From Membranipora membranacea (lineage: Eukaryota; Bryozoa; Gymnolaemata; Cheilostomatida; Membraniporidae), in the NCBI GenBank assembly GCA_914767715.1, contig OU612069.1:6634001-6698000 (forward strand): a stretch of 64,000 nucleotides of DNA, read 5' to 3'. Below are positions 5,557-54,365 of this stretch, piece by piece; position 1 is the stretch's first letter; each line of letters starts with the position of its first letter. The position numbers were made by a program, and so were the translations under genes. The notes under the pieces are model-generated. The model had not been told where the DNA came from. It was given only the letters and a program-made list of their open reading frames with translations, and searched no databases.

Positions 5557-8500
5557 ATGAGTACGAGAAAAACTCGAAAACGTGTAGCGGAGGTAAGCTG
5601 ATAATATTTTAGCATTGACATTCGCATTTCGTGCTGTAATGGTGCTTTAACTGATTAATGTCTAACTGGTAAACTGCCTAACAAAGCCAAAGCTTGGTTG
5701 TTTACACCTAAACAGAAAAATGTGGGTAACATTGACTCACTGGTATTGTCATTACAGGATTCTGTCAGTTTCGAGGTAGGAGAGAAGGTGTTGGCGCTCT
5801 GGCCACCGGATGGCAGGTGGTACAATGCAGTTATTATGGAAGTGGTGAGCACCAGTGGAATCAGTGTGAAATTCGATGATGGTTTCACAAGGACACTTAA
5901 AGTGCATCAAGTAAGTGAGAATGGAGTAGAGTTGTGTAATGTGTACATGCGATAAAGTGAGCAGGATGCGCTTTTAAGTCATTATCCTACTGTTAAATTC
6001 AGCATAGGATCGCTATTCGTTTTGACTTAAGGTTAAAAGTGTATTAGGTAAACTGCACTAGGACCTTTTTGCTGGTCAGGAAAGCTTTGAAGCAAGTCCA
6101 CAACAGTGTCTGTCTACTTCTGTTTTCTTGAATTTGTATGTTTAACAAGTATTTCTATAACAGGTGTGTCTAAGGCCAGGTAAAGAATTGCTATGAGCTA
6201 TGATTCATTGTTTTGAATGTTACAATTTGATGGATTGATACCTATTATAGTTAGTATTCACATGACAGTTATATGCTAATTTTTTGATGCGATTGCAGAA
6301 AGCTTTGTTACAATTTTGAAGCCTTCACATGATGTAAAATTATGTCATAATCCACAGGAGCTGCCATTCTTTGCCTGATAGTGCTCTCCACAATAATGAC
6401 TCTGTGTAAGGCGTTAAGTTTAGTTGGAACATTGTCAAGTTGGGTGTTCGTTTTTTGATGGGGTGGACTCAGCGGTCAATGTTTTCCGGCTGGTTGTATT
6501 GTACTAATCGGCAGATACAGAAAATGTCGTAGATGACCTCGTGTGAATCTTGTCTTGTGTTTGTTGCAGACGTAAAAACTCAGAGAACGCATGCCAGCTG
6601 GTCCGTTGCAGTCATCATCTGCCTCAAGGAGAGAAGTCTCTAGTAAGTATACATGTTAGCCAGAACGGAGATATGCAAATCTGATGTCTCCCTACCCATT
6701 TATTTTATGCAGCCATCTGCGACCTACAATTAGGCTTTGACCTGGAATTGTCTAAGTCTGCTGGTGTGTTAGCTTGGAATGCTAAGGCTATGATCACTAT
6801 TCACTGTGCAGTCTATAGTATTGCAGGTATAGCATAGCCAGAATGCGTACTTATACAATAACCAGTAGGTAGATATTCTATACTCTTGTATGTATCTTGT
6901 CTTGTGTTTGTTGCAGAACTAACAACTCAGAGTACGGACAAGAAGGTGAGAGAGCCCATCCCAGATGGTCAGTTGCAGTCATCATATGAGCCGAACGCTG
7001 GCAGCGGTGTACTAATTTCTTCTGCCTCTAGTAGAGAAGTCTGTAGTAAGTATATATGTTGGCTAGCTCAGAGATACACAAATTTGTGGCCACCCTACCC
7101 ATTATATGTTGGCCACAGCCGTCTGTGGCCTACAATTAGGCTTTGACTTGGAATTGTCTAAGTCTGCTGTTGTGTTAGCTTGGAAGGCTAAGGCTATGAT
7201 CACTATTCACTGTGTAGTATATAGTAGAGCTGCACGATATATCAATATTATTCAATAGTATCGAGTACTACTTGGTCAATATTATTCAATCAGATCACTA
7301 GAAACTATCGTTTAATATGTATTATTCAATGTAATAATTATTCATGGGCAATTGTTTCTGTAGCCCAGTGGCTGCAAGCTTAGCATGCACTGTTATTGCA
7401 TCGGTTGTGGGTTTGAACCCAATCAAGGACACACTTTTTCATGGGGAGGACAACTTCCTAATGATGTATTAATTTTAATTTTATTCAATAAAATCAAAAT
7501 TTTGTGATTATTTGAGACTGAATATTCGATATAACATGATTTGTGCTATCGTACAGCTCTAGTATATAGTAATGCTGGTATAGCATTGCCAGAATGCGCA
7601 CTTATACAATAACCTGTAGGTAGATATTCTATGCTCTTGTATGTATCTTGTCTTGTGTTTGTTGCAGAACTAACAACTCAGAGTACGGACAAGAATGTGA
7701 GAGAGCCCATTCCAGATGGTCAGTTGCAGTCATCATATGAGCCGAACCATGAAGATATCCCCAGACATATCAATAATGCGCCTGACCTTGTAGCAGGTTT
7801 GTGACTACCTATTTGTGGTGTGGGCGGACATTGTACTTAGTAGGTACAGGGCAGTAGTATGCAGTCAGGGCAGTAGCTGTTCGTTACTGATTACATAGCA
7901 AGTTTCTAATCTGTTTTTGAGATTAGTGTCAGCCTTACAATAGGGGAGACCGGGGTAATATGGGCATGTTTTTTTCAAACTGCAAATTTATACAGTATTT
8001 TTTCCCCTAGGATAACATAATTTAACACCAAGTATCAGCACAGATGTATAATCTTCATACTCCTTGGAATTTACACTCGGTTTATTCTTTTTCGCGTGAG
8101 AGCTTGACTTGCGATTTAGGTGAGCGGCCCATTTTCCCCCGGATACCGGGGTAAAATGAGCCTAGGAATTTACATGTTAAAAGCTGAAAAAAAAAAATGA
8201 AAGTTTGTATTTTCATACTTTATTGCTAGTAATTGAAATAACAAAATAATAAAACAGCTTTAAGGTTATATTCAGTCTTTTATAACGCAGACATTACGTA
8301 CATAGGCATTATCTTAGGTTGTATGAGTTCAGTTTATAGGGGATGGTGATGCCGCCCCGCTGGCGCATTGTGTTGGCATTGCTAACTGGTGGAGGAAGAA
8401 TCATGGCCAACTGTGCTCGATCAACACACTTGCAGTCTAGTATATCAGGTTTTGTGAATCTTCCATTCGAGTATCTATAAAAGTCCAGCTTTAATTCATC

Positions 8501-11500
8501 CTCGCTGACTTCTAAGAGTTCTCCGACATAGAAAACGGATGACTTCTTTTGTGGGAACTCAACGAGTGCAAACCTTCCTACTGTTACATCATCATCAAGA
8601 ACCAACTCTTCATCTGGGTCTTCACTATCCGTTGAGACTGGTGTATCACTAGAATCTTCACTATCATCATTGTCAGCTGGTATGAGTTTGCGCTTGTGTG
8701 GAGGCTTTCTTTTGGTTATGATGATTCCTGAGGTGGAGGGTTGCTCGTTATCAATCTCGACTGTTGTTCCCGAGTCGGTGTTATCAGGTTTCTGAGGAGT
8801 GGCTGTTAGAATGGTAGTCGTAGTTCTCTTCCTTTTTGTAGCACTGAGTTTTCTAGGTGGAGCCTTAGGTAGCGATGGGAGTGGTGAGACAACAGTTTCC
8901 TGGGGAGCAGTTTCTGGGTCAGGGCGGTCTGTAACATGGCATGACATGAAGTCATGATCGTGAAATATCTCAGGGTTGATTGGGTAAATGCCGGTAGCTG
9001 CGAATCCACTAGTAATATTTGATGGTGTCATGGCTTTCATATATGCCTTTCCACTACACTCCGCTACATTGTACATTGAGAAAGTTTTTCCAGGGTTTGT
9101 CACCATCCATGCGTCAAGGAAAGTATTATAATACTTCTTGAAAGGCCCAAACACACTTACATCGAGGGGCTGCAGCCTGTGGCTGCAATGGGGTGGGAAT
9201 GTTAGCATGGTCAAGTTGTTCTGTTTAGCTAACTTGACAGCTTCAATGGATATGTGACTCGAATGGTTATCTACGATGAGTAGCTTAGGCTTCTGGTTGT
9301 TCCCAAAATGACTGATTAAGTGCTGTAGGACCTTCGGGAATAAGTCGTTATTCATCCAGCTACTGGGATTGGCTAAGCCCAAGGAACCACTTGGAGCACC
9401 AATCAACATATTATCCTTGAAATTTACTCTTGGAAAGACATAGGCTGGTGGTAGGCTCTGTCCTGAGGCACTGATACATGAAACCATGGTTATTGTCTTC
9501 CCTCTTTCGGCACTCGTAATTTGACCTAGTTGTTTTACTCCTCTTTGAGCTAGAACCCTCTGGACTTTCTGAACAGTTGAGTTGGCCGTTTCGTCCAGAT
9601 TGAATATGCAGTCAGGGGTAAACTCATATTTTCTCATAACAGTCTCAAGATTACTAAAGAACTCTTTCACCGTTGCTCTGTTAAATGCTGATGCTCTACC
9701 AAGGCTTGTGGCCTCTGGTGACCTCAAACTCAAAGCATTGTTACGATTTCTAAATCCGAACAGCCAGTCTTCTCCTGCCATTTTCTCAGCATTCCATGTT
9801 TTAGGAATATTATCTTTATGTAGATTGACAGCATAGCTGTATGCTAACCCCCTAGTTTTGATCAAGTTCAGCCCATGGAATATTCTCGAACAGTCCAAAA
9901 CATATTCACAGAGTTTCGCCTCTTCATCTTTTGTGAAGATAGCAGTCCTCCCCAGTTTAGATTTCTGGCGTCCTTCTCCTTCAGCACAAAGAAGATATCT
10001 CTGTAGTGTGGCACGTGGGATCGAGTGTTTCTTTCCAGCCTCTCGCTGGCTCATCCCAGCCTTAACATCGTCTATGGCAGACTGCAGGTCTTCGGATGAA
10101 AACTTTGCCCTCTCAGTCGTCCTTGTGCGTTTTCTTGGCATGATTGCAACCTACAAAGCAAAATCACATTAATCAATACATTGTAGGTGTACTAAGATTA
10201 TGGAAGCTAGTAGTTAGATATATCTAAAACTGTTATCCGATGTTTACTGATTAGCGGGGTAATATGGGCCGGTGGCCCATATTACCCTGGTCTGGATGGC
10301 CCATTTAACCCCATGTGATGATTTGAGAGAAAAATAACAATTTATCAAATTGGTGAGGAGTTGTCATCTCATGCTTGTAAACACAGATTCCTCACATAGT
10401 GAGAAATCAATGCATTTAAGTTAGTTCCAACATCATAAAATGCACCAAAGTTATCCCTGGCCATAGGGGCATCAAGATATTTACTTTTGGATGAGTAAAA
10501 TTTGTTTTACTTACTGTGCAGAAGGAAAATAGAGCAGAGCTTTCAAAGCCACATGTATTTTTCTGAAACATGAAGTACTAAAATATTAGAGAAAGAAAAA
10601 ATGGAAACAAACAATATTTTAGCCAATCAGCAGGTGGCCCATATTACCCTGTGGCCCATATTCCCCCAGTCTCCCCTACTTGGCATGGCTTTGTAGTATA
10701 AAAATAGGCTATATTCTGACGTGGGTGTTGTTGTATATCTCCCATTATTTTTAGTAGAATCATCGAATGTACTTTCATGCTAGATGTTCTTTTCCTTGTA
10801 GCTGACTTGCTACCCACTGAGATGTGGCTGGAAATCCTGGCCTACGCTGTAGGAAAACATGGAATAAAGACCTATAGGGCAATAATGTTGACCTCGAGAA
10901 GATTTTACTGTATTGCTCAGTGTCTCCAAAAACCACAGCCTCTACCAAAAATCTATCTTTGTCTGTACAATATTAACGCCCTTGGCATCAGAGTGGGTGA
11001 TAACATTACCCACATGGTTTCCTACCGTGACATACTTGATGTGACTGGACAATATTCAGGTGTCAGCATCATCCTCCCTGAGATCCTATCCGAAAGCCAG
11101 CTGAACCCGGACACAACAGTGTTCACTTTGTCTCATAGAGGTCTCGGCTGGTTTAATGTTCACAATGTGACGCAGAACTGTTCCAAGTCAATGGACCTCT
11201 GTAAGCACCTTGGTCTTAGCTCCTAACATTCTCTATGTGTGACCAGGACCTTGAAAAACTCTTGTTAAGTTGTTATGCATAAAGTCATGAGCCTGTAAAA
11301 AAACTGTATTTTTATTCAGTGCAAGGCATTCTGCATTATGTGGAAAGAATACTTTAAAATAATTGCAGCGAGATGCGTCTTTCCACAAGAAACTAGTTGT
11401 ATCAATGACGCCTCCTTGTACATTGTACAATATATCATCTCTCATATATGTAAATCACCATGTCATCATCGCCTCTAGATCCTTCATTGCAGTGCTAATG

Positions 11501-14500: not shown

Positions 14501-17500
14501 TTGGCCACAGCCGCCTGCGGCCTACAATTAGGCTTTGACTTGGAATTGTCTAAGACTGCTGGTGTGTAAGCTTGGAATGCTAAGGCTATGATCACTATTC
14601 ACTGTGCAGTATATAGTAATGCAGGTATAGCATTGCCAGAATACGTACTTATACAATAACCTTTAGGTAGATATTCTATGCTCTTGTATGTATCTTGTCT
14701 TGTGTATGTTGCAGAACTAACAACTCAGAGTACAGACAAGAATGTGAGAGAGCCCATCCCAGATGGTCAGTTGCAGTCATTATATGAGCCGAACGCTGGC
14801 AGCGGTGTACTAATTTCTTCTGCCTCTAGTAGAGAAGTCTCTAGTAAGTATATATGTTGGCTAGCTCAGAGATACACAAATTTGTGGCCACCCTACCCAT
14901 TATATGTTGGCCACAGCTGTCTGCGGCCTACGACTTGGAATTGTCTAAGACTGCTGGTGTGTAAGCTTGGAATGCTAAGGCTATGATCACTATTCACTGT
15001 GCAGTCTATAGTATTGCAGGTATAGCATTGCTAGAATACGTACTTATACAATAACTGTCAGCACAGAAAAAAGTAAAACAGCTCCAAGCTTAGCCCAGCT
15101 TTAATTATTATAAACATTACGCTTTCTTTGATTTTCTCTACATATATTTCGTTATAAAATAATAAACCTTAACCTCACACCCTTCCTTTTTCCCTTTTGT
15201 TTTGACATCAAACTATATAATCATGATAACCAATGACAGCCACACTTGGTTACCGCAGATGCCATTAGCTCAGCTAGAATATAGAACAGCCTTTACAAAT
15301 GACATCCATGGTTAATGGCAAATAATTGCTCTTTATAATTGACCCTGAATGTTGCATCACATATTCATTCACTATTAGCTATCATGACAGCAGCAGTACA
15401 AGCTAGATATCAGTTCCATTAACTGCTGTTTCTCAAGTTGTCTTCCCCTTTTATAATGCAGGATAACTCCTGACTTTACTGGATCACGTATTATTATAGG
15501 ACACTGGAAATTCCACTGTCTCAAAGTGAAGACAGCCAATGAGAATGTTTGGCTTAAAATAGACTGCGTATCATAATTATTTTAAGCAAATGATGCTTTG
15601 GCTTAAAATAGACTATATGTCATAGGGCTTAAGCCAATGAGATTATCTTATGTACAATTTCCACATAAGGTGCAATCATGCAATCAATTATGTAAGAAAG
15701 ACTGAGAGCAAAACATCTTTTTACAGGGAAAACAGCACCGCACCAGCGATGAAACAGCACAGAGATGAAAAACAACAGTCTTGGGAATGATGCAAGATTT
15801 CAGCGAGCACCACCGGAGAGTATAAAAGGAGGAAAATTCAAGAAAAAAAGACAAGTGCTCACCGGATACAAAACCATATTATATCAGTAGAAAACATGTA
15901 GTAGAGCATTTCATATTTTTATATAAATCTGATTTTAATTCAGATAAATATTTTGAGAATTAATTTTACGATGAATTATTTTTACTCTGGATTATTCACA
16001 CTTTGGAGACTGGATATATTATAAGCAAGAGGACGACAAGGATACATTGGTAATTATACTTTATTTTGAAAAGGATTATTATCATTTTTTTTATTAATAA
16101 TTTTATACTTCTACATTTTTAAATTGACATTTTTGTATTCACTTCTAAATTTAGAACAAAATAAATAGTTGTATTGACCTCAACTAAGCATCCGCTTGAT
16201 TAAATTATTGAGTTGTAAACAACCACCGAGTATCAGGATTCAAGAGTCATTAACCCAGTCTTTGACCTTGCAAAATTATCGTTTTTATAAAGCGTCAAGA
16301 ATTTTATTATCTTTGAGTAGTCAAAGATACTTTGAACTAGAATTGTGAAAGTCGAATATATCATCAAGAGTCTTTAGCGCAGTCTTTGACCTTGTAGAAT
16401 TATCACTCTATAAGCATCAATAATTTTATTATCTTTGAGTAGTCAAAGATACTTTGAAATAGAATTGTGATAGGTCAATTAAAGTATCGAGCTAAAATTA
16501 AAGCCAAATTTGAAGCGACCTAGAGCTATTCTCATTCCAGACAGAGAAGTGAATTGAAGTCTGTAACCTATCAATTGGTTACAAGGCCTGTGATTCTAAT
16601 ACAACTGCCGGTGTCACCTAATTGGACTTCCAGGCACTAAACAAAGTCCAACAACCTGGTTGGAATTTAAATCTCCACCAATAAGTGAGATTATTTATAG
16701 ATAACTACGCAATATATATATCAAACTACAACCGCAGGCTAATATTTATTATAGCCACGAGTTCATAAACCACATACAGTTATCGATCGCTTTGTGGTGC
16801 ATGAGTATTGTCTCAAGCTTATAACAAGCTTTCTGCTAGGCCAATTTAGGGATACCTGCGGTTGATTGGCAGGAGCTGCCCTTTGAATGACTAAGGAGCG
16901 AACTTCTCCTTAGTTCAAGAGTGGTCAGACTTATAAACAATTCTAAGGGTTTCTCTAAACCTGGAAAGGGAAGCCAGCTGTTCGTCTCTTGAAATTTTGC
17001 CAAGGTTAATTGACACATGTGGTTAATTGAGTGCTACCAAATTTACACACACACACACACACACACATACAGGTAAGGGCATCCTTTTGGGGTGGTCTGC
17101 GCAGCGTCATAGTTTCGGGATTTAGCTGATACATTTGCCTGATCTGGCTGAAAAGCTGTCAGCTGACTCTTGAGACGTTCGCTTACCATAATATAGGTCT
17201 GAATTTCAAGAGTAGCTAAAAGTTTGTTTTATATTATTTTTTGTGGGTAATGGGGAGGGAAACCTGCGCAGCACCAATGTTTTGGGAAGAATTTTGAGGC
17301 CGGTATTTTTTATAAATTTATAGTGCTTCAACATTGAAAATTGTCTTCTCACCTTCTCTCGCCAGTGTTTGTTTGTCACTACAAGCAAAATAATGAGAGT
17401 TGTCTTCTTTTTAAGAACGAGTCAACACCACATGAATTCAGGTGCATTGCAAAGTTGTTGAAGCCAAGGCCAGTGCATAATGCTCAGTGTATTCAGGCGC

Positions 17501-47500: not shown

Positions 47501-50500
47501 TAAAATTTGCGCGCCAATCATATACATTGATGTGCTCACCAGATGCACAGCTTGTGTCAGTATAGAGCAATTAGGTAGTGCATCGGTTGTTAGATCGGAG
47601 TGTCCCAGGTTAAATGAGTAACATATTGGTGGGAAACAAGTGGTGGAGAAAGCAGCTATCAATATTGTTTTGCTGTTTGTTAATGGACGACCTGCTTTTG
47701 TAGATTATAAAACAGGGAGAGGGAGAGCTCATTGTGGTCAAGCGACCTCCACATCCTACAGCTGCACACCACCACTTACCGTGCTCTTATTGCTATGGCT
47801 TTTATCACTTCTCTAATATAAATCAGCATATGAGACGCTGCAATACATCCAGTCCGAAACGAAACAACAGCTTGAGCCAGTGCCGTGCTATGATGACACC
47901 CTATATAATGAGTGATGACAAGATAGAATCTGATTTGGACACATGCCTAGGTGGCCTGAGTGAAACTGCAAAATATCCAGGTTAGTTATCGATATGCTGT
48001 TATTTGACACGGTCTTAATGATATCTAGCCAGGTTCAAATTGACGTGTTACCATAAATATTGGAATCCTGGCTGAGCTTAGCTCAGGCTGAGCAAAGAAA
48101 AAGCTAAAAGCTGAGAGATAGCATAGCCTGACATTGCATAGTCTTAAAAAGCCTTATAGGGGAGGGTGTCATGTCAGAAACCCATGGTATACAAGTCATA
48201 ACACTTTAATATGATTCCGTGTACAGTTTGATTCCCTAGGTTTTGTTTCCCTTCGTTAAGTCATATAATTAGAACATTATGTTGGTAAAATTACATCCAA
48301 CTTTCTTACCCATAAAGCCCAGAGCCCACTATAGCATGTTTTGCAAGCAACCTTATGCACCTATCTGAGCACACTGTAGTGTAAATCGCCCCTGTATGAT
48401 ACATCAATGACTGTTGGATTAATCATGAATGAATAAACTCGTTCTGGGTCAATGATCAGCAAATGGCCAATTGGCCAATGAGAACACCGCTCATGCCACA
48501 TGGGTTGAATCATTTTTGCTTAACGTCAGTGATAATTGCATACACAAGCGTAAGCTCACGCCTGCCAAAAAAAACAGGCTATAGTGGGCTCTGGACTCAA
48601 GACAGACAGTTTCAGCAGTGTTGTTGGATTACATAATGAGGTTGTTAGGAAGCTCCATAATAACGGGGAGAAGTGGGGTTGCAGAATTTATTGCCCATTG
48701 GACTCAAAAAATCCTGTGTGAAATTGACCTTGAATATCACAGTGTTGTGTCCCACCTATTGCTTTCATTTGTTGAGTTTATCATTGCAGGGCTTCGATCC
48801 ATTATACTGAAAGATCGGCTCATCCAAGATTTTGCAAGAAACCTAATTCTCAGATCTGGTGGTGAAGAACTTAGAAGACCCAATGCATTCAACCCGCTTC
48901 GTCAGAAATTGCGAGCAGTTGCATTGCTGTTATCAGAAAGCAAGAAAACAGATAGAGATATTGAGGATATGGACACACTACTTACTCCAAAGTTTTTCCA
49001 ACCGTTTCTCAATGCCAGCAAAACCGTGGCGTCCCAGAATGACCAGATGGGGCTAACCATCGGATCATACATCAAGCAACTTATCCTTCTAAAGATATCT
49101 CGTGCAATCCAAACAAACGATATGACAAAACAAACTGAAGCAGAACGATTTCGCTATCTCATGGATGCTCACTTCTTAAGTGAAGTAACCTCAGTTGCGG
49201 GTAAGAGGCAGCGTTTAAAGCGTATAAATAGGCCGGAAGAGCTACCTTTAAGTAGCGACCTCGCTGATCTCTCTGCTTATCTGAAAGAGCAAATAATTAC
49301 CTCCCACGATGTACACAGACTCGCGAAACTATGTCTCTGCTACCTTATTGTGTTTAACAAGCGTAGACCCATGGAGGTGGCTGAGATCACGACGGAGGCT
49401 TATATAACAGAGATCCAGCGGCCAATTGAAGACAATCCCGAGATCCTAAACTCACTGGAGTTCACGGAAAGGCTTATGGCAGAAAGGTAAGTCGCTTAAA
49501 TTTGCTGTCGGCTCGTTTCCATTTTATTGCATAGAAAAACAGGAAGTATTTTCATATGTGAAAATACTTCCTGCTTGTTCATGCATAAACCCTGAAAAAG
49601 GTTGCTTGCATTCTCACATCAAACTAGATTAATTTGTAAGCTGTTTAATAGCGATTTAACTCAATTCTCTCTCAATGTCCATATACAGAAACCGTATTGT
49701 GAGCCCAAGCAATAGTCCAAACAAATTCCTACTCAATATGCATAGGAATGCTTAGCAGCACAGTTTCAGGCTTGCTTTGGACAAGGAATATTTCTTGAGG
49801 AATGAACTTCCTTGCTCTTGAAAAGACAGGCGATTGTAAAACCTAACCCATTGCTTGTTTGATCTACTAATCCCAAGTAATGCCGGCATCACATGATTTA
49901 ATATTCAACGTAATCAAATGTAAACTTAATTATATTAGTGCAGGTGGTGTTACATTTATCAATGTAGTCCAAAAAAATTGAAAATTGATTTTGAGTCGCT
50001 GGTTCTAATCCAATCAGAGGTGATTATTTGATCGAGCAAACAAGTATCTGATGAAATATATTCTGTGAGACTATTTTTCAACTCTACAGGACAAGAGCTA
50101 TCCAAGTGCGTGGTAAAAGTACGAATGGGGATATGAAAGGTGTTCGTTGTTATTCCAGACTTCTTGTTACCCAAACTGGAACATCTGGCAGCAGAGAAGA
50201 AGCACTTCTTGTTTTTTGGGTAATTACACTGTAGGCTGAATATATTATAGTCAATTAATGAACATCCCTATTATCTAGCAAATAGATTGTATGCCCATTG
50301 GGTATGGGAATCCTTTACAATAGTTATATCATTGGCTGAATGGCTTACTTACTATTGATGGTTTTGTGGAACATAGCTTATACATCATTCTTGATTTTAA
50401 ACTGACTGGCAGACTGACGTTTACTAAGCAGGATCAAATCAGCCAAGCGAATCTGCCTAGCAACCAGTAAAAATCATATAAGCTATCATGTGTACCGAGT

Positions 50501-53500
50501 TCGCCCTAATATCAAACATTGCTTGATATCATGGCGGAATACGCTTGGTCAAATGATAGTACATGTATATAGTTTCGCTCCACTAATTATTAGGGCAATT
50601 ACAGTACAGATTCTCCAGTCTGTTTCTAACTTTACCAATGAGCTAAGTCTATTTCATTGCTCTCACTACCTCTGCCCTGTTGTATTGTTGAACTGTTGGA
50701 TGGCTTTGTGCTTACATACAGGACTACGCAAAAGCCGCTGATAGGGACAGTGATAGTAAAGGAGATGGTCGACGAGTGTTGTCAATCAGTGGAACTCTGA
50801 AGACCCGACTTATTACACAGCCAAATGTTCAGAAAATATTTAACAACGGTTTGTCAAGTAGGTTCAAATCTTTTATCAAAGTACCTGGCACCTTTTGGGA
50901 TGCTATATGAATAAAATTGAATGACGCATTATCAATGCTATTTTGATTAGGTCAATGATTGGTAACTACATTTAGCTAATGGCGTCTATTATCCCAGAGT
51001 GGCTACCTAGCCAATGTCTGTCTCATCTGAATGGAATAGTGGTAGAAATAGGAAGATTGGTCCATATCACCACCCATTTGACCTTGACCTGGCCAGTCTC
51101 ATCCCTTACCTAGTCTGCCCTTTTCTCCTTGTGTTAAAATATTTCAACAACAATAACGGCTATATTCAGCAATAAAGGGTTATGTTTTCATAATCAACAA
51201 CGAAAAAAATAAGAGTTAAGTAGTTGGCACACACTATACGTAATCTGTTGGATAATTGAATCAGCTTAGTATATGATTGATAAGAGAATTGCTGAACTGT
51301 CTATTTGTATAGGTTGCAGATATGACTAGAGATGAACTAGAGATGGTGGCGGACCACCTTGGTCACTCCGCAAATATTCACACAGGTGTTTATATGAAGC
51401 AACAAAATCTGATCGAAAGATCGAAAGTTGCTCTTGTTCTATCCGGAGTAGAAAATGGGCTATACAAGAAAACGGAACAAAAGGTGTATCTTGACACTCT
51501 GAATATCAGAGATATAGGTGAGTTTTCTCCATCTTGCTCCTCTCATCCAATCAAGTTCTGAATATGGAATAGAACTTTTCATGGTTCAATGTGTCTATGA
51601 ATTCAATTATAAGCGGAGTTGATTTACATAAAATTTATTTTCTCGATAAACCCCCCCACTTCCAGGAATGAACTGCTTTATATACCATATAGGTAGCAAA
51701 CAACCAACTCTCGTATGATTGCATTAGTAGTATTGTGCATAATGAATGCTGTGCCATGGAGGTATAGTTTATGTTATGAGTACAATTCATGTCGTTTATT
51801 TGAGCGATAATTGAACATAAAACTCATTCGGCTTGTTGCAGACTAACGGGAACTTGTATCACTATTGGGACAGTTGTAGACGCTATGTACTAAATGTTCG
51901 GTGACAATGCCAAACCTAACCATTGGTTTCCATTCAGCATAAGCAGTCTACTCTGTTGTTAAAGTGTGACGTTTTTCTAGCTGACACTCTTTTTCTTTGC
52001 GTTTAAGCTTCATGTGCGGCAGAAGAGGAGATTGATGATGAAGCATCGACCTCTCAAGTTGTGCATATGGTGACTCGACCGGGCACTCCAGTTGATATTG
52101 TAACAGACACCGATTCAACTTCTCAGGTCAGTAAGGTTTCTATATATCTATAAACAAGCGTAAGCGATCCTTTGACAAGCTGGCTAAGTAGTCTATCGGG
52201 AGCAAAACCCAAAGGTCTGGCTTTTTGCAGATCGAATCTTTTGGGCATCATTCATTTGGCTCATAGTTCCATCACTACAGAAAACTGTTTCCTCTGAACA
52301 GTAAGTTGTGAGCACAGTATGTCCTTAAAGTCCCAATAGTGGCTATGCACTCTAGATTAAAGGGCTTGAGACATGAACAGGCATTTGCCGGAGGTTGTTA
52401 GAAAGCTAAGAAATTGTAAGAAATAAAAAGCTAATGACAGCTACAGAAAACATTGTTTTATATTGCGAAGCCTTGACAAGCCTCAAAGGGTAGGGTGTTA
52501 CTAAACCCAGATATATGTTAGGCAATAACACACCTCTGGCAAATAGCTGTTCATGTGACTAGTACGTATTAACTCTTGACTACTCTGAGCCTCGCATTAT
52601 ACTTTACTGCTGAACCTGATAGCTTAAAATCATCCTGATACCAATTGAATGCATGATTTCTATGAAATTGCAGTCAGATCGGGAAAAGAGTACAGATTCA
52701 GAATCGGAAGAAGATCAGGCGCACAGAGGTAAATATGCAAGACTTGGAATCATACCCCAAGTTTAACAAAGAAAAAGCTAACATAAGCTAATGAAAGCTG
52801 ATAATGAAAGCAGAGATAGCTTAGCTTCAAATTGCACAGCCTTGACAAGTCTTATAAGGGATTGTGTCACTAACCCCAAACACATGTTAGAAACTTGTCA
52901 TATATAGGTCACAATTGGGTATGATTCCAATTCTACCGGTAAATATTCTAACCGTTTTGGCAATACTTGTGACATCATCAATGTTGCGAGGAATACCTTA
53001 AAAAGAGAGTTGTCTTCTGTCGTATTACGTATGTATTTGAACCCATAATATTTATGTGGCAGAGTAGCTGACATGGTAGTGAGCTTTTCCTCTAGGATAC
53101 GGTAATACTCGTAGTGCTCGCCATAAGATCCTACTACCACAGGAGGGATCAGCTGTACGCTCTCATGATTTAATGTCCCAGTTTCTAAACTGAAATTACG
53201 TGTCAGTTCATTATAATAATTCAACAATGTGATAACATTGAAGGAAGCTATGCATTGAATGTGTTTTTGGTGGATTTGAGAAACTAAAACAAAGTAAATA
53301 GTTTACTTCTCAATCTAATTGAGCGTGGCAGCTTATTCTTTTGTGTTATCCGAATTTTTCAGTAAAATCAGAGTTGTTTCCTAATGACTTGTATTATCTG
53401 TATCACTAGCATGTGCAGTAACTTCTACTAGGTCTATTGACCCCCAGTTGTACAGGTTTGCAAACAACTAAAAAGAAACAAGATTGTTATGTTGCATTGC

Positions 53501-54365
53501 ATTTTTACAATCGTTGTTACATATCCATTTGCGTGACCTTGCTTGTAGGTAGAGGTAAGCAGAGAACGGGAGCTGAGCAGAGTAGTCAGGCTGGTACTGG
53601 GAGAGGTGAGTGTGTGGGAACTTCGGTAGATTATTTTGGAACTGTATTTAATCGCTGAGCGGGGTATTTAGAACTGTGCATTGGTGTACATGGGTTATGC
53701 ACCTATATGCTGAGCGACAAGGTTGAGAAACAGTGCAGAAAAACATAGATATACAATGTTAGAAAGCCTATCCAACTTCAGATAGAAATGATTTATCTTT
53801 TGCCGACTGTCTAGCTAAGGCCACACCAAATTGATGACTTGATCTAGATTAAAAAGAAGAACCAGGCACAGAGGAGGGAGGAGGTATATTATTTTTCATT
53901 TTATGCCAAAATACTAGAGGACGCTGGAGGGAAATTCATTTTTATCACATATTTTGTGTTATTTTTACAATAATTTAGAGAATGATCAACTGGAGGAAGC
54001 TTTTTTAGTTTATTTCTATAATATTCCAGACAATATTTTAGAGGAGGGAGTTAAATCTAGACCAAGACATCAATTTGGTGTGGCCTAAAGCTCATTGATA
54101 CAATCTGCCTGTGTCTACAATGAGTCCAATGCTTTCAGTCTGCCGATGTATCACCTGTTATTCGATTTACTTCATAGGAAAGAGTAAGATTGCCTGGACG
54201 GCATCAGAGACGGCGGTTGTCCTGAAATATTGGGACCCAGATAGTGGGGGACTACCCAAGAAAGAGGCTCTAGAGAAGGTGGCGGCACGTCTACCAAGAA
54301 GATCTGTACTAGTGATACGAGCTCACTGTGCCAACCTGAGGCGGCGTAAATCCAACAAACCATAA
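5557..54365 (+). CDS. Outer gene: Tudor / F-box-like / zinc-finger / tyrosine-recombinase / Myb-like protein (disrupted)
   Basis: Predicted exons: 5557-5592, 5758-5910, 6164-6179, 6917-7045, 7668-7796, 10802-11200, 11521-11619, 12286-12429, 12707-12835, 13113-13241, 13508-13636, 13903-14031, 14309-14437, 14715-14843, 44446-44574, 44852-44980, 45854-45922, 46369-46592, 47704-47980, 48790-49486, 50090-50219, 50722-50857, 51313-51517, 52008-52126, 52674-52728, 53549-53605, 54178-54365. Every junction is phase-compatible once one extra base in 50090-50219 is discounted, giving 1431 codons including stop. The start ATG (5557) follows an AG acceptor, suggesting a 5'UTR intron. An AATAAA lies at 54766. 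Domain order matches the inner paralogue. The frameshift and the TGA at about 50808 fall in the recombinase core, so this copy is probably catalytically dead or a pseudogene in its 3' half. An alternative is two separate genes (5.5-15 kb and 44.4-54.4 kb) that were once one. Confidence 0.7.
5758..5910 (+). CDS. Tudor-domain exon of outer gene
   Basis: This 153-nt, phase 0-0 exon encodes 51 residues with the Tudor pattern: VGEKVLALWPPDG, an aromatic WYNAV strand, then VKFDDGFTRTL. Tudor domains bind methylated Lys/Arg peptides, usually on histones or RNA-binding proteins. The acceptor is ATTACAG and the donor GTAAGT. The upstream exon (5557-5592) gives MSTRKTRKRVAE, a basic leader. The equivalent exon in the inner gene is 38021-38167. 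Confidence 0.75.
6164..6179 (+). CDS. 16-nt micro-exon switching phase 0 to phase 1
   Basis: A 16-nt exon (VCLRP plus one base) between ATAACAG and GTAAAG. It is needed to convert the phase-0 Tudor exon into the phase-1 cassette exons. The inner gene has a 19-nt micro-exon at the same place with the same phase change, which supports both. Confidence 0.55.
6570..6642 (+). pseudogene. Degenerate cassette exon (deleted copy)
   Basis: It keeps the cassette acceptor (GTGTTTGTTGCAG) and donor (CTA/GTAAGTAT) but is only 73 nt because of internal deletions relative to the 129-nt unit. 73 is not a multiple of 3, so including it would break the frame into the next unit. It is probably skipped or dead. 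Confidence 0.55.
6917..7045 (+). CDS. Cassette unit u1 (129 nt, phase 1-1)
   Basis: A full unit: LTTQSTDKKVREPIPDGQLQ followed by a Ser-rich second half. An Asn-to-Lys change creates AAG/GTGAGA inside the exon, a possible cryptic donor absent in the other units. The following spacer carries the 7225-7561 hAT element. Confidence 0.65.
7225..7561. mobile_element. Non-autonomous hAT element (MITE) with tRNA-like core
   Basis: 337 bp with terminal inverted repeats TAGAGCTGCACGATA / TAGAGCTGTACGATA, flanked by the 8-bp duplication GTATATAG at 7217-7224 and 7562-7569. These are hAT hallmarks. It sits in the intron after u1. Inside, 7371-7430 looks tRNA-like, with B box GGTTTGAACCC at 7410-7420. 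No transposase is encoded. Confidence 0.85.
7668..7796 (+). CDS. Cassette unit u2 with alternative 3' half (terminal-type unit)
   Basis: Also 129 nt and phase 1-1. The first 26 codons match the other units; the rest switches to HEDIPRHINNAPDLVA with a GTTTGT donor. It joins in phase to the F-box-like exon at 10802 across the intron that holds the Tigger element. The same variant ending recurs only in u11 (44852-44980), so it appears to mark the last unit of an array. Confidence 0.65.
7943..10676 (-). mobile_element. pogo/Tigger-type DNA transposon, near intact
   Basis: 2734 bp bounded by inverted repeats GGGGAGACCGGGGTAATATG on the left and the matching GGGGAGACTGGGGGAATATG read in from the right, with TA on each side (7941-7942, 10677-10678) as the Tc1/mariner-type target duplication. 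Subterminal regions repeat the GGCCCATATTACCCC motif: around 8127-8162 on the left; 10256-10320 and 10634-10650 on the right. It contains one long ORF (8309-10141). It lies in an intron of the outer gene, transcribed against it. Open ORF and clear ends suggest recent activity. Confidence 0.9.
8309..10141 (-). CDS. pogo/Tigger-family DDE transposase, 610 aa
   Basis: Cuts and pastes its own element by RNase-H-fold DDE chemistry. An N-terminal psq-type helix-turn-helix covers about residues 14-52 (REAGKKHSIPRATLQRYL), followed by a CENP-B-like second DNA-binding region (about 65-135). The DDE_1 core has its acidic residues at D183 in IFNLDETAN, D291 in LLIVDNHSSH and D327 in LQPLDVSVFGPF, a spacing of about 35 between the last two, as in pogo elements. 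The C-terminal third is Ser/Pro/Asp-rich (about 410-510), then a small folded tail with FYVGELLEV. The length is normal for a complete family member and no stop or frameshift is seen. The ATG at 10139-10141 is the first in frame and precedes the HTH. Confidence 0.92.
   Translation of the reverse strand: MPRKRTRTTERAKFSSEDLQSAIDDVKAGMSQREAGKKHSIPRATLQRYLLCAEGEGRQKSKLGRTAIFTKDEEAKLCEYVLDCSRIFHGLNLIKTRGLAYSYAVNLHKDNIPKTWNAEKMAGEDWLFGFRNRNNALSLRSPEATSLGRASAFNRATVKEFFSNLETVMRKYEFTPDCIFNLDETANSTVQKVQRVLAQRGVKQLGQITSAERGKTITMVSCISASGQSLPPAYVFPRVNFKDNMLIGAPSGSLGLANPSSWMNNDLFPKVLQHLISHFGNNQKPKLLIVDNHSSHISIEAVKLAKQNNLTMLTFPPHCSHRLQPLDVSVFGPFKKYYNTFLDAWMVTNPGKTFSMYNVAECSGKAYMKAMTPSNITSGFAATGIYPINPEIFHDHDFMSCHVTDRPDPETAPQETVVSPLPSLPKAPPRKLSATKRKRTTTTILTATPQKPDNTDSGTTVEIDNEQPSTSGIIITKRKPPHKRKLIPADNDDSEDSSDTPVSTDSEDPDEELVLDDDVTVGRFALVEFPQKKSSVFYVGELLEVSEDELKLDFYRYSNGRFTKPDILDCKCVDRAQLAMILPPPVSNANTMRQRGGITIPYKLNSYNLR
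10802..11200 (+). CDS. F-box-like domain exon of outer gene
   Basis: 399 nt, phase 1-1, 133 residues. It begins with an F-box-like segment, LLPTEMWLEILAYAV then LTSRRFYCIAQCL. F-boxes usually bind Skp1 to build SCF ubiquitin ligases. The second part (VSYRDILDVTGQYSGVSIIL) is strongly conserved in the inner-gene exon 29997-30392. The acceptor CCTTGTAG and donor CTCT/GTAAGC match the paralogue. An alternative is an intron-retained end at TAA 11224-11226, but the paralogue supports splicing. Confidence 0.65.
11521..11619 (+). CDS. Linker exon after F-box exon, outer gene
   Basis: 99 nt, phase 1-1, encoding an acidic Ser-rich linker with ETDSESDMPSISLSRHC and ending NLHDLG. The inner-gene counterpart (29267-29371) has ESECDLPSISLPLSRNC in register, which confirms the exon. 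Function unknown. Confidence 0.65.
11739..11921. mobile_element. pogo-like MITE, 183 bp
   Basis: Inverted ends CAGTGCACTCCTGTTATAAG and, read in from the right, CAGTGTACTCCCGCTAAATA, flanked by TA (11737-11738, 11922-11923). It is too short to encode protein. The CAGT...ACTCC end resembles pogo/Tigger-like families but differs from the ends of the 7943-10676 element, so it belongs to another family. Confidence 0.7.
12286..12429 (+). CDS. Cassette unit u3 (144 nt, novel 5' half)
   Basis: Phase 1-1. The first half is unrelated to other units (THGKSLEKELSDPTTCTH); the second half joins the standard unit at LQSSYEPNA. The acceptor is TTTTGACTCAG and the donor CTA/GTAAGT. It looks like a hybrid between a pre-existing exon and the repeat unit and may mark the array's entry point. 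Confidence 0.6.
12707..12835 (+). CDS. Cassette unit u4 (representative of u4-u9)
   Basis: 129 nt = 43 codons, phase 1-1, acceptor GTTTGTTGCAG, donor CCCTA/GTAAGTAT. It encodes LTTQSTDKNVREPIPDGQLQ, then SSYEPNADGGVLISSVSSRD plus VP. The peptide is Ser/Thr/Glu/Pro-rich without recognisable fold, so probably a flexible linker or modification-rich region. u5 to u9 have the same length, phase and splice sites with a few substitutions (S/V, E/D, N-A-G/D). Because each unit is symmetric, any subset can be included or skipped without changing frame. Confidence 0.7.
15056..16510 (+). other. LTR- or promoter-like left end of nested segment
   Basis: Starts with TG immediately after ATAAC. It has a TATA-like TATAAAAG at 15821-15828 and AATAAA at 16159-16164. 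16241-16480 is a tandem duplication of about 120 bp, each copy holding the small palindrome TCTTTGAGTAGTCAAAGA. These are features of a retroelement terminal repeat, but no second copy, primer-binding site or pol gene was seen, so an LTR call stays tentative. Confidence 0.3.
16511..18815. other. Non-coding part of nested segment, downstream of inner gene
   Basis: AT-rich with a CA microsatellite at about 17046-17068. No exon with splice support was found. Several TTTATT motifs around 18240-18370 could serve as AATAAA signals for the inner gene on the - strand, but none is decisive. Confidence 0.4.
18816..38400 (-). CDS. Inner gene: Tudor / F-box-like / zinc-finger / tyrosine-recombinase / Myb-like protein (open throughout)
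   Basis: Predicted exons: 38335-38400, 38021-38167, 37783-37801, 37587-37649, eight 87-nt cassettes (36626-36712, 36027-36113, 35428-35514, 34829-34915, 34229-34315, 33630-33716, 33033-33119, 32435-32521), 31627-31773, 30960-31091, 29997-30392, 29267-29371, 28823-28879, 28357-28401, 27866-27931, 27626-27688, 27151-27288, 25676-26655, 24955-25190, 23551-23824, 22636-22900, 20984-21049, 20323-20388, 19648-19796, 18816-18821. All phases close, giving 1394 codons including stop. Least certain: the first exon, the donor of 27151-27288 (a better GTATGT four bases earlier breaks frame) and the 6-nt last exon. Its start, MLTRRKRKS, resembles the outer gene's MSTRKTRKR. The recombinase core is intact. 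It is nested antisense in the outer gene. Confidence 0.7.
19165..19455. repeat. Foldback (long inverted repeat) in inner-gene 3' intron
   Basis: About 100-bp arms: GCCATTGCCCGTCACTGG near 19180 is repeated inverted near 19426-19444, and the similarity extends inward through GAGTTGAAAT and ATAGATATTC. A second short hairpin on ACAAGTCT/AGACTTGT follows at 19469-19530. It probably represents a MITE; no clear target duplication was identified. Confidence 0.5.
19648..19796 (-). CDS. Myb/SANT-like C-terminal exon, inner gene
   Basis: 149 nt, phase 1 to 0. It encodes WSKEEMVVINHSF, then RLPGRNWQQIKAAAFRIRDK, a helix-rich Myb/SANT-like pattern with the two spaced Trp residues expected of one repeat. 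Such domains bind DNA or histone tails. The outer gene ends with a related exon (54178-54365). It would end at AAATGA in 18816-18821, or by read-through at the intron stop. Confidence 0.6.
20323..20388 (-). CDS. Basic linker exon, inner gene
   Basis: 66 nt, phase 1-1, encoding a Lys/Thr-rich linker with VVKGKTEKARRK, possibly a nuclear localisation signal. Donor GTAAGT. Confidence 0.5.
20984..21049 (-). CDS. Acidic Ser-rich linker exon, inner gene
   Basis: 66 nt, phase 1-1: GSIESDVTSSDGEQSAHASN. It links the recombinase domain to the basic linker and Myb-like end. AG acceptor and GTAAGG donor. Confidence 0.5.
21440..21805. repeat. Tandem repeat, three copies of about 140 bp
   Basis: Copies begin at about 21447, 21588 and 21728 with GCGATTGAGTTAAAAC or close variants, each followed by a GACATCA-rich stretch. 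It lies in an inner-gene intron and has no coding signal. Confidence 0.65.
22285..22592. mobile_element. MITE-like foldback, about 310 bp
   Basis: Ends are inverted: CACTTGCTTGAGGGGCC on the left and CACTTGTGTGTGGGGGCCC read in from the right. Each is followed by a pyrimidine-rich CTTTTTTCCTAC-type arm; the arms align over about 50 bp. Class unknown. It lies in an inner-gene intron just beyond the recombinase Tyr exon. Confidence 0.5.
22636..22900 (-). CDS. Tyrosine-recombinase His/Tyr catalytic exon, inner gene
   Basis: 265 nt, phase 0 to 1. It contains LARHLGHSIKVHKEFYRL: the LGH box and, nine residues after its His, the Tyr that would be the nucleophile, the same spacing as in lambda integrase. 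Tyrosine recombinases cut and rejoin DNA through a 3'-phosphotyrosine. A Lys/Leu-rich helix (VVKVGKLLLANEKGL) and an acidic tail (EGEEEEAECEEIYPEE) follow. With the Arg, Lys and second Arg in exons 24955-25190 and 23551-23824, the active-site set looks complete. Confidence 0.78.
23551..23824 (-). CDS. Tyrosine-recombinase core exon (Lys and second Arg), inner gene
   Basis: 274 nt, phase 2 to 0. IGKHRRIVPILVP resembles the beta-hairpin that carries the catalytic Lys; YVFGVPGTVASRRR and DTLRELCRSL lie between. TTTRFRKHLATYTQ is the box II region with the conserved Arg; the usual His three residues earlier is Thr here. The same order is recognisable, though broken, in the outer gene. Confidence 0.72.
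24955..25190 (-). CDS. Tyrosine-recombinase core exon (first Arg), inner gene
   Basis: 236 nt, phase 0 to 2. LALFNARRGGEMAALKVDEL is the box I region holding the first catalytic Arg. The outer gene has YLIVFNKRRPMEVAEITTEA at the same place. Acceptor GCATGTAG, donor GTAAGG. Confidence 0.72.
25676..26655 (-). CDS. Zinc-finger and recombinase N-terminal exon, inner gene
   Basis: 980 nt, phase 1 to 0, 326 codons. There are two zinc-finger-like motifs: YACPFCEKLVCKFAEHILVH (C2H2) and CCPKCLGYYRKSLITAHFKR ending in Cys (C2HC). A long helical region follows (INDSLIREYGKKLYSKL, TKMRELSRLLIKVRF), equivalent to the core-binding half of a tyrosine recombinase. The outer gene splits this stretch over three exons (46369-46592, 47704-47980, 48790-49486) but lacks the intron after AQDLK. 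The fingers probably help DNA recognition. Donor GTAGGT. Confidence 0.75.
27151..27288 (-). CDS. Ser/Glu-rich linker exon with ambiguous donor, inner gene
   Basis: Encodes SESSESSESSDAEDVTKESA and a Thr/Ser tail, a likely phosphorylated, disordered linker. With the better donor, GTATGT (exon 27155-27288, 134 nt), it would end in phase 0 and misframe the next exon. With GTATTA four bases downstream it is 138 nt and phase 1-1. A 1-nt deletion or an unseen micro-exon is the alternative. Confidence 0.5.
27626..28879 (-). CDS. Four short acidic/polar linker exons, inner gene
   Basis: Exons 28823-28879 (57 nt, NSNKPLPGIETMVQPHR), 28357-28401 (45 nt, ESWPDELRPTQSNN), 27866-27931 (66 nt, VDSVIRPASPVVPMDHGYSS) and 27626-27688 (63 nt, EELLEEDEGCEGSDTDPD). 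All are phase 1-1 with AG/GT borders, so each is skippable. No domain is recognised. Confidence 0.6.
29267..29371 (-). CDS. Linker exon after F-box exon, inner gene
   Basis: 105 nt, phase 1-1, counterpart of 11521-11619: STMNTSLDEKESECDLPSIS and an ending of NLLDFG. Acceptor TTTTCTAG, donor GTAAGA. Confidence 0.65.
29997..30392 (-). CDS. F-box-like domain exon, inner gene
   Basis: 396 nt, phase 1-1. It starts GLPNEMWLKLMRHAVGKH, then CKMFHSIAELL (F-box-like), then VSYRDILDVTGESSGVSLML, clearly paralogous to 10802-11200. Acceptor ACATGTAG, donor AACT/GTAAGT. Confidence 0.68.
30960..31091 (-). CDS. Asp/Ser-rich linker exon, inner gene
   Basis: 132 nt, phase 1-1: PSLDDESSVEPVSSDSRSID then DDRRLDSDDDSQL. 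It lies between the two F-box-like exons. The acceptor has a good pyrimidine tract; the donor is GTGTAG (weak). Confidence 0.55.
31627..31773 (-). CDS. Second, shorter F-box-like exon, inner gene
   Basis: 147 nt, phase 1-1: SLPSEVWIGLLSGRLGTYKS, then ASTCSLWRDTATLL, close to the F-box pattern (LPxEvw...l...Cs.wR..a). No counterpart was seen in the outer gene. The GTATTT donor is weak and read-through gives TAG at once, so this could also be a terminal exon of a short isoform. Confidence 0.5.
32172..36890 (-). repeat. Tandem array of eight 597-600-bp units, each with an 87-nt cassette exon
   Basis: The marker GCAAAATTGAG recurs at 32343, 32940, 33537, 34134, 34734, 35333, 35932 and 36531. Central copies (34134-35932) are almost identical; edge copies are more diverged, as expected from unequal crossing-over. 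Every unit keeps, on the - strand, acceptor CTTATTTCTCAG, an open 87-nt exon and donor GTATGTATAT. A decayed ninth unit lies near 37128. The + strand ORFs of 60-80 codons in the units have no support. Confidence 0.88.
32435..32521 (-). CDS. 87-nt cassette exon (representative of eight)
   Basis: Phase 1-1, 29 codons: TLSDTHEHGLSDVHQSNS then PPVETSQLHD, a His/Ser/Asp-rich peptide without known fold. Copies: 33033-33119 and 33630-33716 (SETHEH, PQVE), 34229-34315, 34829-34915 and 35428-35514 (as this one), 36027-36113 (SETHEH, ending HE), 36626-36712 (ending RE). All eight keep length, frame and splice sites. The sequence is unrelated to the outer gene's 129-nt cassette. Confidence 0.7.
36891..37586. 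other. Non-coding intron with decayed repeat unit
   Basis: Degraded remains of the 600-bp unit (for example GTATGAATATTTGCATAC on the - strand near 37120-37137) and several CTCCCCAAA motifs. No open cassette exon is present. Confidence 0.45.
37587..37801 (-). CDS. Micro-exon (19 nt) and following 63-nt exon, inner gene
   Basis: 37783-37801 (PYLEPT plus one base) changes phase 0 to 1, as its 16-nt counterpart does in the outer gene. 37587-37649 (63 nt, phase 1-1) encodes SNSPYVITITDLYRDSDNTK. Acceptors TTTTGGCAG and TTTTTTGTAG; donors GTGAGT and GTACCC (weak). Confidence 0.55.
38021..38167 (-). CDS. Tudor-domain exon, inner gene
   Basis: 147 nt, phase 0-0: YDIGDLVWALWPGSTFFYQG, TVIEKKKRTVAVRYFDNEIK, then ELKYRHVE. 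It has the same Tudor pattern as 5758-5910 (xGdxVwALWP, aromatic, V.YFDN). Acceptor ATTTATAG, donor GTAAGA. Confidence 0.72.
38335..38400 (-). CDS. Candidate first exon of inner gene
   Basis: ATG at 38398-38400 gives MLTRRKRKSAIP, resembling the outer gene's basic start MSTRKTRKRVAE. A GTGTAA donor after codon 22 joins in phase 0 to the Tudor exon. The donor is weak and the exon boundary uncertain. Confidence 0.4.
38729..38800. mobile_element. hAT terminal fragment
   Basis: CAGGGGTGGGCAAACTTTT at 38729-38747 is a typical hAT (Charlie-like) terminal repeat, followed by a region like the usual subterminal GAGCC-containing sequence. No matching right end was found, so it is a remnant. Confidence 0.5.
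39361..39813 (-). CDS. Cys-rich hypothetical ORF, 150 aa
   Basis: An uninterrupted ORF from ATG at 39813, upstream of and on the same strand as the inner gene. Cys/His pairs (NICPKHHRSNIYIACGPC; EICQHCNRLTKHC) suggest zinc binding; the middle is basic (VSRKLKKL). GTGAGT near its end (CAA/GTGAGT) is a good donor, so it may be a first exon. That donor's phase does not fit the Tudor exon directly, so I do not join it to the inner gene. I do not recognise a family. Confidence 0.35.
   Translation of the reverse strand: MPFLYERRYSLKFQTSLKPIKEDDVEETYENICPKHHRSNIYIACGPCLNEFLEDEKHQCKPRTSAKEFRYLHPLKRTEMFINMRHSGVSRKLKKLQPNWDEICQHCNRLTKHCLSEAKHNKYGVERALHGNSEQRACCSIFFACIGLSK
39814..40278. other. Intergenic, no gene seen
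   Basis: Nothing with splice or family support; short ORFs only. Confidence 0.4.
40279..40370 (+). repeat. tRNA-derived SINE head
   Basis: A-box-like TAGTGGTCTAAG near 40291 and B box GGTTCGATTCC at 40339-40349, then a T-run. Acceptor-stem pairing is absent, so it is a tRNA-derived repeat rather than a tRNA gene. Confidence 0.65.
40371..43777. other. Upstream flank of inner gene inside nested segment, no gene seen
   Basis: About 3.4 kb, AT-rich, with only short unsupported ORFs. It may hold the inner gene's promoter and, symmetrically, intron signals for the outer gene, but nothing specific was identified. Confidence 0.4.
43778..44100. repeat. Inverted-repeat cluster (GGACAACTC / GAGTTGTCC and GGGGAG / CTCCCC)
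   Basis: GAGGACAACTCTT at 43780-43792 pairs with AAGAGTTGTCCTC at 43852-43864, an 85-bp foldback. Further GGGGAG/CTCCCC arms follow to about 44095. Similar GAGTTG..CAACTC pieces occur near 18984-19046, so this is probably a dispersed MITE family. Confidence 0.4.
44446..44980 (+). CDS. Cassette units u10 and u11 of outer gene, right of the nested segment
   Basis: u10 (44446-44574, 129 nt) is closest to u4/u8 (ADGGVLISSVSSRDAP). u11 (44852-44980, 129 nt) carries the terminal-type second half HEDVPRLFNNAPDLVA, as in u2. Both are phase 1-1 and continue the array interrupted at 15055; the flanking introns match too. Confidence 0.68.
45854..45922 (+). CDS. Acidic linker exon, outer gene
   Basis: 69 nt, phase 1-1: SDDDEEDKVVAGPDLYRQKL. 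It bridges the cassette array to the zinc-finger exons. Acceptor ATCACTAG, donor GTATGG. Confidence 0.55.
46369..46592 (+). CDS. C2H2 zinc-finger exon, outer gene
   Basis: 224 nt, phase 1 to 0. CYFCGLYFTSRMSRHLKRSH is a C2H2 finger, followed by a basic helical stretch (MVREALRLKKAESVEKFRKI). It corresponds to the first finger of the inner exon 25676-26655. Confidence 0.7.
46823..47199. mobile_element. Non-autonomous hAT element with tRNA-like core and GC-rich hairpins
   Basis: 377 bp. Ends CAGTGGCGTATATT and, read in from the right, CAGGGGCGTATATT. The 8-bp flanks GACAATAT (46815-46822) and GTCAATAT (47200-47207) match at 7 of 8. It contains a tRNA-like segment (about 46866-46950, B box GGTTCGAATCC at 46928-46938) and three hairpins at 47068-47143. 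It lies in an intron of the outer gene. Confidence 0.75.
47225..47310 (+). repeat. tRNA-like SINE fragment
   Basis: GCCTGAATAGCTCAAGTAG resembles a tRNA 5' half and AGTTTGAGACCC a degraded B box, ending in a T-run. It is weaker than the two tRNA-like cores in the hAT elements. Confidence 0.4.
47704..47980 (+). CDS. C2HC zinc-finger exon, outer gene
   Basis: 277 nt, phase 0 to 1. PCSYCYGFYHFSNINQHMRR then Cys is a C2HC finger, matching the second finger of the inner gene. It joins in phase to 48790 (AKYP/GLRSI). Confidence 0.68.
48790..49486 (+). CDS. Recombinase core-binding region and first Arg, outer gene
   Basis: 697 nt, phase 1 to 2. Acceptor TTATCATTGCAG; the longer ORF upstream of it (from 48618) is intron read-through. 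It encodes ILKDRLIQDFARNLILRS and other helices that align with the inner gene, then LCYLIVFNKRRPMEVAEI with the first catalytic Arg. No intron is present where the inner gene has one (after AQDLK). Confidence 0.7.
50090..50219 (+). pseudogene. Recombinase hairpin exon with 1-nt frameshift, outer gene
   Basis: The upstream frame reads TRAIQVRGKSTNGDMK, including the hairpin Lys, up to about 50137. The paralogous continuation VFVVIPDFLLPKLEHLA lies in the next frame, as if one A had been added in GAAAGG. Downstream exon phases fit only the shifted frame. This could be a mutation, a sequencing error or an allele. Confidence 0.6.
50722..50857 (+). pseudogene. Recombinase box II exon with nonsense codon, outer gene
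   Basis: 136 nt, phase 2 to 0. In the phase-consistent frame it encodes IGTVIVKEMVDECC..., then TGA at about 50808, then RPDLLHSQMFRKYLTTVCQ, which aligns with the inner gene's TTTRFRKHLATYTQ. A CGA-to-TGA change would explain the stop. Confidence 0.6.
51313..51517 (+). CDS. Recombinase His/Tyr exon, outer gene
   Basis: 205 nt, phase 0 to 1: VADHLGHSANIHTGVYMK, with the LGH His and a Tyr nine residues later as in the inner gene. The exon itself is intact, so damage to the outer recombinase is limited to the two exons before it. Confidence 0.72.
52008..53605 (+). CDS. Three linker exons, outer gene
   Basis: 52008-52126 (phase 1 to 0, SCAAEEEIDDEASTSQVVHM), 52674-52728 (0 to 1, STDSESEEDQAHR) and 53549-53605 (1 to 1, RGKQRTGAEQSSQAGTGR). 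They are acidic then basic linkers like 20984-21049 and 20323-20388 of the inner gene. Confidence 0.58.
54178..54365 (+). CDS. Myb/SANT-like terminal exon, outer gene
   Basis: 188 nt, starts in phase 1, ends TAA at 54363-54365. KSKIAWTASETAVVLKYW, then EKVAARLPRRSVLVIRAHCA. The SANT-like pattern is weaker than in the inner gene. AATAAA follows at 54766. Confidence 0.6.

Follow-up and report, generated by a model that had tools for sequence, protein, structure and literature searches.

A mobile DNA element of 27 kb, which we call element A, occupies positions 17068–44135 (its unique part) of the window analysed here, a stretch of 64,000 nucleotides of Membranipora membranacea DNA (contig C5, 6634001–6698000); it has four young copies, all sited in CA/TACA microsatellites. 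Its minus strand encodes, in order, a Cys/His-rich module, a Tudor domain, an array of 87-bp exons, two F-box-like modules, zinc fingers, a tyrosine recombinase (YR) and a C-terminal segment, and these exons are likely to be joined in one large spliced protein, as predicted from the DNA. Element A lies inside a second, plus-strand locus with related modules. We consider it probable that the whole picture holds, namely an element mobile at CA/TACA microsatellites, a mechanism centred on one protein and a plus-strand locus that is its broken, older host.

Four copies of element A lie in CA/TACA microsatellites

The YR exons of element A recur in the genome (339 Mb searched, 18 contigs) on contigs C2, C3 and C8 with similar exon spacing and at 90–96% identity by exon, on a scale on which the window's own exons score 92–97%. 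In DNA comparisons, similarity to these three copies begins at 17044/17045 and ends at 44149–44151 (3/3), giving the element sharp edges on both sides. Including the microsatellite ends, the copies measure 27,107 bp (window), 27,211 bp (C2), 33,175 bp (C3) and 27,837 bp (C8), and the left-end 300 bp, used as a genome query, is found in four places.

All eight ends, on four contigs, adjoin (CA)n or (TACA)n. The window copy is flanked by (CA)n at 17046–17067 (gene-strand 3′ end) and 44136–44151 (gene-strand 5′ end), which are the only two CA/TACA arrays in the window. The C2 copy likewise has (CA)n on both sides, the C3 copy has (TACA)n on both sides and the C8 copy has (TACA)n on the left and (CA)n on the right; when the 2 kb flanking each copy are compared, the common sequence is confined to these microsatellite runs. 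The 200 kb around the C2, C3 and C8 copies hold nine such arrays, amounting to 0.36% of bases, and seven of the nine stand at element ends. Terminal repeats were not found, the 600-bp ends sharing just 10-base matches (E 0.27). Judged by its anatomy, recombinase-driven mobility into CA/TG repeats is a well-supported reading of element A. An earlier note, made from the letters of the window, had offered two origins for the gene: the recombinase of an unrecognised large element, which the sharp ends, the four dispersed young copies and the microsatellite flanks bear out, and a domesticated recombinase, which for the minus-strand gene is contradicted by that same dispersal and those same ends.

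Within element A, at 44100–44134 near the gene-strand 5′ end, stand 7-base inverted arms (GTTGACA/TGTCAAC) that may be a recombinase site or may be chance.

Modules and constraint of the element A gene

The minus-strand gene spans about 20 of the 27 kb. A splice model for both strands reproduces the outer coordinates 5557 and 54365; it contains small exons that are probably spurious (some of those from 28879 to 27866, plus the last two), it places the acceptor of F-box-like module 2 too late (30278) and it leaves out the C-terminal segment, and an alternative model includes a doubtful exon at 24714–24650. The Cys/His-rich N-terminal module (39364–39834, on the minus strand like the other exons of this gene) has no Pfam match over cut-off and is presumably spliced to the Tudor exon (38021–38167). 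That exon matches SGF29_Tudor at 1.3e-6 (29 bits against a Pfam cut-off of 23.8), and a Tudor exon of the plus-strand locus matches Tudor_3 at 5.6e-6 (26.6 against 25.8), so that the Tudor domains previously read on both strands are upheld. Then follow eight 87-bp phase-1/1 exons in 600-bp tandem units (32435–36712). The array numbers 8, 8, 9 and 18 exons in the four copies, and 43 of 43 units retain AG/GT splice sites, the 87-bp length and an open frame.

The two F-box-like modules are the least firmly identified parts. Module 1 (31627–31773), compared among the window, C2, C3 and C8 copies, carries a stop in the C2 and C3 copies and is open throughout in the C8 copy, relative to which the surrounding window segment is 15 bp shorter; with its phase-1/1 boundaries, module 1 could be left out in splicing and the frame kept. 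Module 2 (29997–30392) is 53% identical to its plus-strand counterpart. The F-box exons on both strands open at a phase-1 acceptor directly before an LP motif, and to that extent the matching junction phases noted earlier hold. Two of the three F-box-like modules have Pfam F-box matches, the best at 2.3e-4 (a separate scan gave 0.025 for the plus-strand module), which partly sustains the first reading; module 2 of the minus strand has no Pfam match at E 1, the F-box region finds none among 5.8 billion proteins at E 0.001 and the structure model of the modules is poor. Profile searches of the PDB with the F-box modules returned a gamma-tubulin component (1.4e-4 to 7.4e-4), which fell outside the F-box part and which we took as chance. 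The evidence for an F-box identity of these modules is thus weak to moderate.

Zinc fingers and the N-terminal, core-binding part of the YR are placed at 25676–26655 by the splice model, followed by YR exon 2 with the first catalytic Arg (24955–25190; ARRGGE), exon 3 (23551–23824; TTRFRKHLAT) and exon 4 (22636–22900; LGHS...FYR, with the presumed catalytic Tyr), all three likewise from the splice model. We compared this YR with 50 long proteins drawn from the 120 matches listed of 907. The R, K, R, H and Y columns are at least 90% conserved across these relatives and the minus-strand YR has the same residues; in what we take to be the HxxR box, the usual His reads Thr. Profiles, which the earlier note had named as a check, recognise the family faintly: the window YR has no Pfam YR match, and relatives P0042 and P0108, chosen for scanning because PF00589 was already listed for both in the database, match that profile at 2.3e-5 and 2.2e-5, under the Pfam cut-off. 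One of the 50 scanned relatives has a PF00589 match; DUF3504 was found neither in the window at E 1 nor, at E 0.001, in any of the 50 relatives. The structure predicted for relative P0003 is similar to those of XerH, Cre, lambda integrase and XerD: with this model, XerH takes the top four places in Foldseek (probability 0.89–0.99), and tyrosine recombinases, mostly Cre, are named in 26 of the 50 VIA-align rows. A PDB sequence search with P0003 gave no match, and a PHROGs search with three relatives gave a single match at E 0.28. The conserved C-terminal segment (19639–19833, outside the splice model) had been called Myb-like, a name for which no Pfam match was found at E 0.05 on either strand.

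Most coding modules of element A appear to be under constraint, a judgement made without a significance test. Across 13 unique exons in four copies (setting aside the array exons, F-box-like module 1, small doubtful exons and the Cys-rich open reading frame (ORF)), 19 of the variant codons are synonymous and 20 nonsynonymous, a ratio of 0.30, with no stops, and just two columns have gaps, both in one acidic exon of the C8 copy. The Tudor exon has two synonymous and no nonsynonymous variant codons, and the C-terminal segment has zero variant codons across 156 bp of its length. In 39 aligned array units, exon diversity at codon positions 1, 2 and 3 is 0.023, 0.027 and 0.076.

Relatives in the genome and the plus-strand locus

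A diverged family, family B, is represented at C6:5.48 Mb, C8:10.76 Mb and C5:24.82 Mb, at 35–56% identity to element A by YR exon (53–56% for the largest). In C6 and C8 the YR exons compared, among them exons 2 and 3, have preserved their splice sites; the C5 copy has lost one acceptor AG and contains a stop. In the C6 copy, Cys-rich, Tudor, two F-box, YR and C-terminal matches follow one another in the class order of element A, making it the one of the three copies that retains all module classes; the C8 copy has no F-box matches and the C5 copy neither Tudor nor F-box matches. A 41% identical counterpart of the Cys/His-rich module lies upstream of Tudor in both Tudor-keeping copies, and all three have a 48–53% identical counterpart of the C-terminal segment downstream of the YR. 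At the 3′ end, similarity between the C6 and C8 copies stops inside a GT/GCGT-rich run, which is short in C6. The gene-strand 3′ ends of element A and family B have CTGTAT in common, which may be chance.

The linkage of modules extends further. At C2:6.5 Mb an older copy shows the module order of element A, and at a C4 locus an F-box match is followed, 4 kb on, by a YR that is about 30% identical. All 13 F-box matches in the genome lie upstream of a same-strand YR match, two of them at some distance (27 kb at C3:27.7 Mb; 38 kb in the plus-strand locus).

Several observations count against our interpretation. Among the 11 Tudor matches in the genome, three on C3, all weak, have no YR match nearby. 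The F-box matches of the C6 copy are swapped by similarity, at 68% for the first and 34% for the second; in element A the diverged module comes first. In the four copies of element A, the Cys/His-rich module has no synonymous and four nonsynonymous variant codons, two small acidic exons have synonymous and nonsynonymous counts of 0 versus 2 and 1 versus 3, the array exons are on average more diverse (0.042) than their flanks (0.031), and the diversity of F-box-like module 2 (0.014) falls inside the intron range of 0.006–0.020. As we read them, the exchanged places of the F-box matches and the less firm status of the YR fold lower single details and leave mobility and module linkage intact.

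The plus-strand locus begins with a first exon and the Tudor exon (5557–5910, Tudor at 5758–5910) and ends, in the splice model, with a C-terminal exon (54178–54365). Its zinc-finger and YR exons (46369–51517) are broken: the YR exon near 50642–50911 has an in-frame stop at 50798–50800 and reads RKY, versus RKH or RKQ in relatives. Close copies of this YR are confined to C5, where two lie at 5.61 and 7.08 Mb (82–95% by exon) and a partial one at 4.92 Mb. We compared the locus with one sister copy, that at C5:5.61 Mb, which joins window positions 4310–6726 (94%) straight to 11892–12396 (92%), has the Tudor exon (92%) and has no F-box. The segment missing from the sister (6727–11891), probably an inserted A-like fragment, contains, on the plus strand, a Tudor-like bit (7813–7887) and F-box (10791–11205) and acidic (11507–11628) exons of the element A type, at 65% and 75% nucleotide identity. 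Between the plus strand and element A, the F-box is 53–54% identical, versus 23–26% for Tudor and the main YR exon, so insertion from another lineage fits better than deletion from the sister. Most likely, then, the plus-strand locus is an older relative, with a Tudor of its own and a YR that is broken, into which an A-like F-box fragment and then element A entered. Modules are indeed readable on both strands between the outer coordinates first given, as the earlier note held; its single plus-strand gene across 5557–54365 is rejected on the sister copy that lacks the F-box segment, and the claim that the same ordered set occurs twice fails for the plus strand, where the F-box lies in that segment and the YR is broken.

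Other features of the locus include a tandem array (12350–15055, plus strand) whose 406-bp units each hold a 129-bp phase-1/1 exon; the remainder of the array continues beyond element A at 44391–44982. The unit has 55 genome matches, all on C5, mostly at or near plus-family copies and also at 4.62 and 20.94 Mb. On the minus strand of the A-like segment, 8312–10150 holds an open 613-amino-acid transposase (DDE_1 1.6e-16, HTH_psq 2.1e-7), which on our own reading is pogo/Tigger-like. A basic ORF of 206 amino acids at 59301–59918 (minus strand) has no Pfam match. Elsewhere, another YR family, with a 263-amino-acid open exon of equal length, is scattered over eight contigs (C1, C3, C5:19.25M, C7, C8:15.89M, C9, C10 and C11), at about 30% identity to both YRs of the window.

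Wider family, proposed mechanism and known systems

The zinc-finger/YR core with its C-terminal segment is also found in proteins of fish, molluscs, frog and urchin. Of the 50 scanned relatives, ten match SET, five MamL-1, one a kinase and one FHA (E 0.001), and P0009 has a HECT match at its C-terminal end; at the same threshold none has Tudor or F-box. Three proteins, P0019, P0085 and P0095 (mollusc, frog and zebrafish), combine SET and the zinc-finger/YR core and are named only as uncharacterized or hypothetical.

The absence of Tudor and F-box from these 50 relatives, together with the family B copies that retain the YR without an F-box match, would be expected if element A carried two neighbouring genes, one for Tudor/F-box and one for zinc-finger/YR, that travel together. 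We regard this as unlikely. In diverged copies the module classes share strand and order, the chain of phase-1/1 exons in the splice model runs on across the junction between the Tudor/F-box and zinc-finger/YR parts, and in single predicted proteins among the relatives this core is fused to SET or FHA at the N terminus. A reduced, nimavirus-like endogenous DNA virus whose YR enters simple repeats would account for the C2H2-type zinc finger, the SAM-like core-binding part and the microsatellite insertion, which fit nimaviral YRs as PMC10871703 describes them; we think it very improbable, as one gene takes up so much of the element, five other ORFs of element A have no Pfam match over cut-off and a two-pattern scan of viral contigs yielded no confirmed relative. 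Spread of both loci as domesticated host genes by segmental duplication is barely credible: the confinement of the plus family's close copies to one contig and the apparent constraint on element A would suit it, and against it stand four places on four contigs with microsatellite ends and otherwise unrelated flanks, a pattern that family B repeats at its 3′ end.

We therefore return to a mobile element with a single large protein. In the mechanism we propose, the recombinase would excise a circle and, through strand exchange, insert it at CA/TG repeats, with the zinc fingers and C-terminal segment binding the element ends. Tudor would tether the recombinase complex to marked chromatin, and the F-box modules would recruit a Skp1–cullin ligase, leading either to removal of a host silencing factor or to limitation of the recombinase itself; we infer these last two roles purely from domain identity. 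More broadly, we lean slightly towards an undescribed class of large, intron-rich animal YR transposons that home to CA/TG microsatellites and repeatedly capture chromatin and ubiquitin modules beside one zinc-finger/YR core, phase-1/1 exons letting modules and array expand by exon duplication. If true, this would add a new class of large elements to animal genomes, with a mobility enzyme that may be able to recognise chromatin and to bring in a ubiquitin ligase; a transposon would thereby have a direct route to picking where it lands and to countering silencing. Young copies and a microsatellite target make the idea testable in one living animal, and it might give a meaning to the 'uncharacterized' SET–recombinase proteins of fish and molluscs.

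Among known systems, the unnamed zinc-finger/YR family has the same core and catalytic residues as element A, with SET, FHA or kinase (HECT in P0009) where element A has Tudor and F-box. Starships are large YR-driven elements of fungi that carry cargo genes; element A resembles them in being large and YR-driven. In the open-licence PMC literature we found no paper in which Tudor, F-box or SET is linked to a YR element, and a term search of a giant-transposon review (PMC6431247) gave no 'Crypton'.

Animal Cryptons (CryptonA and CryptonI) are, like element A, DNA elements that carry a tyrosine recombinase and lack terminal repeats; according to PMC3212892 they have no C-terminal domain. Element A differs in its size of 27–33 kb, its splicing, its extra N-terminal modules and its C-terminal segment, which follows the YR in element A, family B and the wider family alike. 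The Crypton-like label first put forward would suit element A only loosely, as a name for any DNA element that carries a YR. Telomere-repeat nimavirus YRs, as described in PMC10871703, combine C2H2, SAM-like and YR parts with insertion into simple repeats, sit in large viral genomes and target (TAACC)n or 28S rDNA; element A, unlike them, has one spliced gene and CA/TG repeats. Their YR-linked insertion into simple repeats recurs, with a different motif, at 8/8 ends of element A and at 2/2 compared 3′ ends of family B. The closest described kinds are Cryptons (PMC3212892) and nimaviral YRs (PMC10871703).
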